A stretch of DNA of 42,590 nt from Bacteroidota bacterium. Lineage in GTDB: Bacteria; Bacteroidota; Ignavibacteria; Ignavibacteriales; Melioribacteraceae. The DNA lies in contig JAHJTX010000279.1 in NCBI GenBank assembly GCA_018829545.1, positions 1-42,590 on the forward strand. Direction: 5' to 3'. A model generated the notes under the pieces. It saw nothing but the letters and a program-made list of their open reading frames with translations, did no database searches and was not told the origin of the DNA. Of this stretch, positions 1 through 1,962 are shown one piece after another. Every line of letters starts with the position of its first letter. The first letter of the stretch is position 1. Position numbers and translations under genes: made by a program.

Positions 1-1
1 C

Positions 2-235
2 ATGACACAGAGAAGAGAAATTAAACTAATTGATGAAGCCCTAGAAACACTAGGGTTCATTCAAAAAAAATATTTCAAAGTGATTTTTCAAAGTGATGAT
101 TTATCTCACTGCTTTACTGTTGTTGATTCATTCCTTGAATCAAAATCCTTTGAACTAGATCAAGAACTAATCGAGATCAGCAATGACGAAATTATGGAAG
201 CATATTTAGAACAAAAACAAATGTATAATTTTTAA
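2..235 (+). CDS. Hypothetical small protein (phage/element-like cassette)
   Basis: Not recognised. A 77-residue, acidic, mostly helical-looking protein with no signal peptide, membrane segment or metal motif. The ATG is the second base of the window, so the true start may lie further upstream and the entry may be 5'-partial. It is the first of four same-strand genes separated by 1-13 bases, the packing typical of phage or integrative-element early genes. The TAA stop is followed directly by the AGGAGTTAAAGAAG leader of the next gene, so translational coupling is likely. Reality of the gene is inferred from packing and ribosome-binding-site context, not from family recognition. Confidence 0.55.
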   Translation: MTQRREIKLIDEALETLGFIQKKYFKVIFQSDDLSHCFTVVDSFLESKSFELDQELIEISNDEIMEAYLEQKQMYNF

Positions 236-248
236 GGAGTTAAAGAAG

Positions 249-485
249 ATGATTCAAAATATATCTGATGATTTTTACAAATTTGATTCAAGACACAAGG
301 CTTTGAGCTTCGCGCAGTCTTGGAGCAATAATGAAAATTGTTACATAGCCGTAATTGATTCTTTTAATGCTGTCGCTGATGCTCATACTTATTTTATTGA
401 AAAGTCTGTCGGAATTTTAAGAAATGGCGAAAAGCTAATTGCTGAATTTGAAAATGGTTTTAACTTAACAAAAGGGAGTTATTGA
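249..485 (+). CDS. Hypothetical small protein (phage/element-like cassette)
   Basis: Not recognised. A 78-residue soluble protein containing one Cys, with a predicted alpha/beta character and no signal or membrane segment. A clear Shine-Dalgarno AAGGAG lies about 10 bases before the ATG, which supports this start. Its stop overlaps the region that carries the GGGAGTTATTGAA leader of the following gene, one base before that gene's ATG. It is the second gene in the element-like cassette. Function unknown; a small phage accessory or DNA-metabolism protein would fit the neighbourhood, but nothing in the sequence shows this. Confidence 0.6.
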   Translation: MIQNISDDFYKFDSRHKALSFAQSWSNNENCYIAVIDSFNAVADAHTYFIEKSVGILRNGEKLIAEFENGFNLTKGSY

Positions 486-486
486 A

Positions 487-696
487 ATGACTTTTAAAGA
501 TGATCCTCGTTGGATTAAAGCCCGTTTTAATTCTATTTGTTCATGCTCTCAATCAATTAAAAAAGGCGATGATATTTTTTACTATCCAAAATCTAAAACC
601 GCAATTTGTAAATTTTGCGGAGAATCAGCTTCGAAACAATTTAATTTAGAAGCACAAGACGAACAATTTTTTAATTCACAATTTAGGAGTAATTGA
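487..696 (+). CDS. Small putative zinc-ribbon protein (phage/element-like)
   Basis: A 69-residue protein with two paired cysteine knuckles: C18-x-C20 and C41-x2-C44 followed by Gly. They are separated by a GDDIFYYP-type segment, a pattern seen in small zinc-ribbon proteins of phages and mobile elements. Zinc binding is inferred from the four-Cys arrangement; the first knuckle has one residue between its cysteines rather than the usual two. The ATG is preceded by GGGAG at good spacing, one base after the stop of the upstream gene, and its own stop sits one base before the next gene's ATG. Possible roles are nucleic-acid binding or protein-protein contact with the downstream ATPase. The specific function is unknown. 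Confidence 0.65.
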   Translation: MTFKDDPRWIKARFNSICSCSQSIKKGDDIFYYPKSKTAICKFCGESASKQFNLEAQDEQFFNSQFRSN

Positions 697-697
697 A

Positions 698-1819
698 ATG
701 AAACTAACTGATTTCGCTACTGAATTAGTCAGTAAAAACAATTTTATTAAAGCCAGCTTTGGCGGCTTTCAAGGTGCGGGTAAATCCCGCACTGCTACTG
801 AATTTATTATCGGCGCTTATAAAGACATGAAATGTAAAAAGCCGATTCTAATCATTGACAATGAAAAAGGTTCTCGCTTCTTAATCCCTATTTTCAAAAA
901 AGCTGGAATCGAAGCAATCGCAAAGGATACAACTTCCTTAGCAGATGTTATTCAAGCATTTGATTTTATACAGAAAGGAGAAGTTGATTTTCTTTTCATT
1001 GATTCAATGACAAAGATTTATTACAAATTCGTAAGAGATTATAAAGCAAAGAATAGAAAATCTTTTATGGCCCTAAACGACTGGGGAAAACTTCTCCCCG
1101 CATGGCAAGAAGAATTTTCCGACCGTTTTGTTAATACTGATGGAAATATTGTTTTTACTGGAAGGGGAGGATTTGAATACGAAAAGGAAGAAGATACAAA
1201 AGATGAAAACGGAGTAGTTGTAGAAAAAGGTTCTTTTGTTAAGTCTGGAATCAAAATGAAAATAGCTGGCGAAACACCTTATGAAACCGATCTCAATATT
1301 TGGATGCAGCTTGAAAAAGAAATTACAAAAGACGGTAAACCTAAGCAGTTGAATGTTGCTTATGTTCTCAAAGACAGATCAGACACCATCAACGGTAAAA
1401 TCTTTGAAATGCCAAAGTATAAGAGCTTCAAACCGATTATCAATTTTATTCTTGGCCTGCCAATTGGCGATGTTGCTCAAGAGTCAACTAATGTCAATCT
1501 AACGCCTGGAAATGATTTTGATTATTACGAAAGGCTGACTAATCGTAAAATAGAAATCGAAAAAATTGAATCACTTTTTGAATTAAATAATCTTGGCTCT
1601 CCACGCTCCGCAGAAGAAAAGAAAATCAAGACAATGATTATTCAGAAGATTTTCGGAACTACTTCTAAAACTGAAATTGAAAAGATGGACGCTGCCCAAC
1701 TCAATTTTAAAAGAAGTGAACTGGATTCATTCTTTAATGCTTTTTCTACTGTGGATGATGATAAAATCTCTTTTATCGAATCCTACAACATCGCTAAAGA
1801 ACAGTTATTTGCAGTCTGA
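698..1819 (+). CDS. RecA-like P-loop ATPase, phage nucleotide-binding type (AAA_24/Sak4-like)
   Basis: A 373-residue P-loop NTPase. A Walker A motif GFQGAGKSR lies at residues 23-31 near the N terminus, a LIIDNE strand at 51-56, and a Walker B strand VDFLFIDS at 96-103 with D102. This order, with the P-loop near the N terminus and a long charged C-terminal part, matches phage nucleotide-binding proteins of the AAA_24/Sak4 type. Those act with single-strand DNA-binding and annealing proteins in phage recombination. The GGAGTAATTGAA leader is almost identical to the one before the previous gene. It is the last gene of the cassette and is followed by a strong hairpin. The ATPase fold is well supported; the recombination role is inferred from family and context. 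Confidence 0.75.
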   Translation: MKLTDFATELVSKNNFIKASFGGFQGAGKSRTATEFIIGAYKDMKCKKPILIIDNEKGSRFLIPIFKKAGIEAIAKDTTSLADVIQAFDFIQKGEVDFLFIDSMTKIYYKFVRDYKAKNRKSFMALNDWGKLLPAWQEEFSDRFVNTDGNIVFTGRGGFEYEKEEDTKDENGVVVEKGSFVKSGIKMKIAGETPYETDLNIWMQLEKEITKDGKPKQLNVAYVLKDRSDTINGKIFEMPKYKSFKPIINFILGLPIGDVAQESTNVNLTPGNDFDYYERLTNRKIEIEKIESLFELNNLGSPRSAEEKKIKTMIIQKIFGTTSKTEIEKMDAAQLNFKRSELDSFFNAFSTVDDDKISFIESYNIAKEQLFAV

Positions 1820-1850
1820 TACAAATTCATTCTAAGCAGTAAATCCACAG

Positions 1851-1875
1851 AAAAGGGAGTTTTTAGCTCCCTTTT
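1851..1875 (+). terminator. Intrinsic terminator after the element cassette
   Basis: A stem AAAAGGGAG / CTCCCTTTT (1851-1859 with 1867-1875) closes a 7-base loop and is followed by a T-rich tail TCTTGTGTATTATTTG. It lies 31 bases after the stop of the P-loop ATPase gene. The A- and T-rich stem base would also let it work for transcripts coming from the tmRNA side. Confidence 0.75.
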
Positions 1876-1928
1876 CTTGTGTATTATTTGTGTAATGTCT
1901 GTAAGTTGTTGTAATATAACGACTTTAG

Positions 1929-1962
1929 TGGAGGTGGCGGGAGTTGAACCCGCGTCCGAAAT
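1929..1962. other. Candidate attachment site: tmRNA 3' end (T arm and acceptor)
   Basis: The T arm and 3' acceptor strand of the tmRNA gene border the element-like cassette at 2-1875. Known tmRNA-targeting integrases recombine within this part of ssrA and leave the element downstream of the intact 3' end, which is the side on which the cassette lies here. No second copy of the motif and no integrase are visible in the window, so this is an inference from position. Confidence 0.35.

Follow-up and report, generated by a model that had tools for sequence, protein, structure and literature searches.

The ssrA-proximal end of a probable virus-like mobile element in an Ignavibacteriales genome

Integration by a tyrosine integrase, with restoration of the target gene, is established for the Islander-type islands and prophages found at tRNA and tmRNA genes (PMC4383910). 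Satellites that encode their own capsids are known from Bacillota and Gammaproteobacteria, with the cf-PICIs averaging ~14 kb (PMC10803314), and from Streptomyces (PMC10690885). Our literature search found no paper joining Ignavibacteria, prophage and satellite.

Here we analyze a stretch of DNA of 42,590 bp (the window), which is the entire contig C261 of a 4.1-Mb Ignavibacteriales MAG of 408 contigs (G000). As in the Islander-type islands, an intact target RNA gene, in this case the tmRNA gene ssrA, is bordered at its 3' end by apparently foreign genes, and both a tyrosine integrase and a displaced fragment of the target gene are seen in related elements; unlike in those islands, the window's own displaced fragment and integrase are not assembled. 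We interpret positions 1 to ~1928 as the ssrA-proximal end of an integrated virus-like mobile element, with a probability of about 0.85. The original prediction, an integrative element or prophage edge at ssrA, is supported to this degree by relatives bounded by att repeats, by an arm next to ssrA that is shared with other genomes, and by the sporadic occurrence of an ATPase gene.

The ssrA locus and the four-gene operon

The intact ssrA gene occupies 1928-2288 on the minus strand (ARAGORN, tag DNYDYALAA; Rfam RF00023, 184 bits), and its 3' end, 1928-1960 on the same strand, is the presumed att core, with an approximate boundary (ARAGORN, Rfam). The first minus-strand gene to the right encodes a cobalamin adenosyltransferase (Pfam 3e-62), which adjoins ssrA in 29 of the 29 relatives examined, and this constant neighbor indicates that the right side of ssrA is chromosome. 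On the left side, four compact plus-strand genes and a terminator had been described beside the ssrA 3' end, and this description holds: the ORFs span 2-1819, with gaps of 13, 1, and 1 bases between them, and are followed by a terminator hairpin of 13 pairs at 1849-1877 on the plus strand. Since the arms of this hairpin are A-rich and T-rich, it probably serves both convergent transcripts. The GC content of the 1.9-kb stretch, 0.329, is the lowest of the window, where the other blocks range from 0.332 to 0.406, and is weak evidence of foreign DNA.

The first two called ORFs, ORF1 (2-235, +, 77 aa), which is the first gene visible at the contig end, and ORF2 (249-485, +, 78 aa), are without family. 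ORF1 gave only sub-threshold matches in Pfam and PHROGs, ORF2 had no significant homologue in any of the related loci compared, and homologues of neither were found in related elements. ORF3 (487-696, +, 69 aa) encodes a zinc-ribbon-like protein with the paired cysteines CSCS ... CKFCG typical of this pattern, and its homologues, 45% identical, lie immediately downstream of the ATPase gene in L069/G091 and L070 (E 1e-11 to 4e-13).

ORF4 (698-1819, +, 373 aa), the marker gene of the element, encodes a Sak4-like RecA-fold ATPase, as judged from PHROGs and Foldseek. The protein has a Walker A motif, GGFQGAGKS, and a Walker B-like motif, FLFIDS, and matches the profiles of phrog_1366 (4e-27) and of the Sak4-like family phrog_124 (4e-10). 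Its profile found no PDB chain by sequence, and the best Foldseek matches of its structure model, which has modest confidence (pLDDT 61), are RecA and KaiC (RecA 3.5e-4). This agrees with Sak4 being a remote homologue of RecA (PMC5928155). The window protein thus resembles Sak4 of phage HK620 (PMC5928155) in combining a Sak4-like PHROG with a RecA fold, although its sequence match is weak (4e-10) and its activity is only predicted. In the collection searched, the sole phage record matching the ATPase was Cronobacter phage phiES15 (31% identity over 88% of the query), an enterobacterial phage that is not closely related to the window element.

ssrA as an integration site in Ignavibacteriales

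Among relatives, the left flank of ssrA varies from genome to genome. Three genomes from three genera, G010, G014, and G032, share this flank with 100% identity across at least 1 kb, although their ssrA genes are only 77-80% identical. The best explanation of this contrast is an element that has spread recently and has one end at the ssrA 3' end. The three contigs (G010:C25, L169; G014:C85, L170; G032:C52, L171) all break ~3 kb into the shared element end. Immediately beside its ssrA, the window has a stretch of 30 bases (1898-1927, putative element-borne att arm from the flank comparison) that agrees with these genomes at 23 of 30 positions and with the related G029 at 25. For the remaining 38 usable flanks the mean is 10/30 (SD 2.4), with a maximum of 19 in G013, whose flank is terminator-like. 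Against this background, the window ssrA seems to bear an element-borne att arm of the kind found in G010, G014, G032, and G029. We considered the arm as inherited chromosome and rejected this, because it belongs to the mobile flank that is 100% identical in three genera. In G022, a shifted and weaker arm (12/30 without the shift) occurs with no element, and is perhaps a remnant.

The proposal that ssrA serves as an integrase target is borne out within this order. G066 contains a 41-bp exact repeat, made of the last 29 bp of ssrA and 12 bp beyond it, at C5:4024-4064 (L210) and again on C48 (L209:9917-9957). These repeats form an att pair for an ssrA-integrated element and further indicate that ssrA serves as an integration site in Ignavibacteriales. 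No integrase was recognised near the C48 copy. A tmRNA-like match on G033 C118 was unconvincing as an ssrA fragment.

The genes left of ssrA could instead be ordinary chromosomal residents of this lineage, a reading to which the slight GC difference and the lack of a direct view of the far boundary on the contig lend some room. We regard this as very improbable, because the operon is missing from all other ssrA flanks examined, where the site is unoccupied or holds other DNA, and because close homologues of the ATPase occur in mobile elements elsewhere. The result that would have spoken against a mobile element, the same four genes beside ssrA in most relatives, did not appear: the ATPase is present in 8 of the 97 genomes compared, G000 included and the rest being relatives from the same family or order, and no other examined flank has the operon. 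Two of these eight are weak or partial matches.

Relatives of the ATPase in att-bounded elements

The named relatives that encode the marker ATPase are Ignavibacteriales MAGs, and in the ATPase-bearing genomes other than G000 the gene lies away from ssrA wherever ssrA was also located. In G043 and G091 the homologues, 69% identical to the window's ATPase, are found inside att-bounded elements. G043 is a single-contig genome with the homologue at 1678029-1679138, and a 49-bp perfect repeat places the tRNA-Met 3' half at 1680821-1680869 and a second copy at 1646595-1646643, which gives an element of 34.2 kb. Its tyrosine integrase gene (1646646-1647752, minus strand; phrog_1, 3e-47) ends 3 bp from the far repeat copy. 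In G091, tRNA-Thr (C43:257714-257787) lies on one side of the homologue and the contig end on the other, and a 66-bp perfect repeat of the tRNA-Thr 3' half and downstream sequence is found on another contig (C42:15929-15994), with an integrase directly before it (C42, 14774-15910) that is 43% identical to that of G043; this element measures at least 36 kb.

The position of the ATPase between these repeats indicates that the marker gene is part of att-bounded elements, in which it lies toward the intact RNA gene. Its distance to the RNA gene is 1.7 kb in G043, ~15.6 kb in G091, where a type I restriction-like cluster lies between ATPase and tRNA-Thr, and ~110 bp in the window. By homology, members of the family would have the integrase at one end and the ATPase toward the other, where the RNA gene lies. 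Truncated tRNA halves were also seen, partly by eye, near ATPase homologues at L068:9406-9470 and L071:6240-6290; they break off near the anticodon, at a point similar to the limits of the repeats in G043 and G091. A tRNA-like fragment 180 bp past the ATPase of G041 C7, noticed by eye, has no intact partner on the contig, was not confirmed by BLAST, and is not counted.

As the window is a complete contig, there is no sequence left of base 1 and a leftward search on the contig is impossible; the far end of the element is absent from the assembly. In G000 as a whole, neither BLAST nor a pattern search with 3 mismatches found a second copy of the ssrA 3' end, the best match (C401) being a tRNA-Pro gene. 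No integrase fitting the element was found among the G000 contigs: those on C364 and C14 look by eye like XerC/D chromosomal recombinases, and the one on C267, XerC-like and 213 aa long, has no ssrA repeat with it. We also found no capsid gene (MCP) in the G000 contigs and no large terminase (TerL) in a search on G000 alone, with no positive genome alongside. These negatives carry limited weight, because the contig stops inside the element.

It is conceivable that the locus is a decayed remnant of which only the ssrA-proximal end is left, the contig break having another cause. Related loci are often broken, as shown by the split terminase of G041 C7 and the frameshifted ATPase homologue of L071, and the bin holds no further element gene. 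Nevertheless, the four ORFs of the window are intact and tightly spaced with a clean terminator at their end, and a contig break inside the element, as in G091, fits a strain-variable mobile element, so that we consider decay improbable.

Head genes, cargo, and the nature of the element

The G043 element encodes a portal, large and small terminase subunits, a head maturation protease, and a major head protein, as well as an endolysin, an integrase, and a replication initiation-like protein. A small protein matching phrog_673, named head scaffolding there, is possibly a decoration protein, judged by its position. The cargo comprises a Vsr-like nuclease, a cytosine methyltransferase, and Thoeris-type TIR proteins. 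The G091 element, partly read from sequence, has terminase, portal, endolysin-like, integrase, and type I restriction-like genes. On L213, an IMG/VR viral contig that encodes the ATPase of the window, we found portal, protease, and capsid genes and, by eye, no recognisable tail-like ORF in 20 kb. Large ORFs beside the portal in similar viral contigs encode type ISP and type III restriction enzymes and DUF2326 defence candidates. We also observed further head-gene clusters (protease, MCP, terminase, portal) in L220 (G041:C101, 43-68 kb) and L218 (G091:C5, 75-83 kb), beside tRNA-Met and tRNA-Asp genes, with restriction- or defence-looking genes and no recognisable tail ORFs.

PHROG scans of 30 G043 and 10 G041 proteins gave 0 tail or connector matches, with ~25 smaller G043 ORFs outside the scan. 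The longest ORF of the G043 element has at most 421 aa, a size that makes a tape measure protein hard to accommodate. In the positive control L115, a contig with a related capsid, the same scan finds head-tail adaptor, head closure, tape measure, and tail proteins. In tailed relatives, the gene for the small head protein is followed by an adaptor-like ORF. In many tail-less loci (L091-L126), inspection by eye finds at the adaptor position a protein with an MRKxxxYLK start and a variable beta-helix or pectate-lyase-like region, possibly a spike; its structure model was unusable (pLDDT 50). By their predicted gene content, the related tail-less elements would be satellites or minimal phages, and their endolysin genes suggest some autonomy.

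These elements resemble cf-PICIs in their location at tDNA and in having a portal, both terminase subunits, protease, capsid, and defence cargo with no detectable tail genes. They differ in that their head proteins resemble those of Mu-like phages, in having their own endolysin, and in that no head-tail connector genes were detected. The size also differs, with 34.2 kb for G043 and at least 36 kb for G091, and given 34 kb against the 14 kb of cf-PICIs we do not file the family as cf-PICI. Compared by description, the Streptomyces satellites MulchRoom and MiniFlayer (PMC10690885) likewise have their own capsid and packaging genes, and MulchRoom (PMC10690885) shares with the related elements an integrase and the lack of identifiable tail genes, whereas both differ in their virulent helpers, direct terminal repeats, and host phylum.

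The window may also hold the end of an integrative element of another kind, such as an ICE, a mobilisable island, or a defence island, combining the Sak4-like operon and the ssrA module with no capsid genes. This would refine rather than contradict the view of an integrative element. The arm-sharing element of G010, G014, G032, and G029 has a replication-relaxation-like protein (by reading) near ssrA and no head genes in 3 kb, the searches of G000 gave neither MCP nor terminase, and modules are freely swapped among such elements. We find this alternative rather unlikely, since every ATPase-bearing contig long enough to judge (G043, G041 C7, G091, L213, and L067) has portal, terminase, or capsid genes belonging to the same element.

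The virus-like element that we favor would, by homology, belong to a tDNA-integrated family of Ignavibacteriales with a capsid and packaging module, lysis genes, and anti-phage defence genes. A tyrosine integrase, absent from the assembly, would have recombined the attP of the element with the conserved ssrA 3' end, so that the element would restore the 3' end of the tmRNA gene and separate its last operon from ssrA by a terminator of its own. The Sak4-like ATPase would most likely promote single-strand annealing and recombination during replication of the element. If the element is like its relatives, it would be packaged in its own capsids, and the heads may borrow tails, as those of cf-PICIs do, or use the spike-like protein. 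The operon, the intact ssrA gene, the homologues within att-bounded elements, and the shared arm are observed. For the window's own element we infer an integrase and a far att copy and, by homology only, head genes. A more specific proposal, which we put forward tentatively and with somewhat less than even confidence, is that the window is the end of an undescribed family of Ignavibacteriota, head-encoding, tail-less, with defence cargo and in many members a beta-helix-like protein at the adaptor position, that would spread via the tails of helper phages or as a spiked minimal virion.

By itself, the window finding accounts for the end of a contig and places a strain-variable mobile element at ssrA. 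The family of tail-less elements with head genes matters more than the window itself and is the stronger lead, its support lying in the relatives. The att-bounded members in G043 and G091 make the spread of a tail-less head element, and its coupling to defence cargo, testable.
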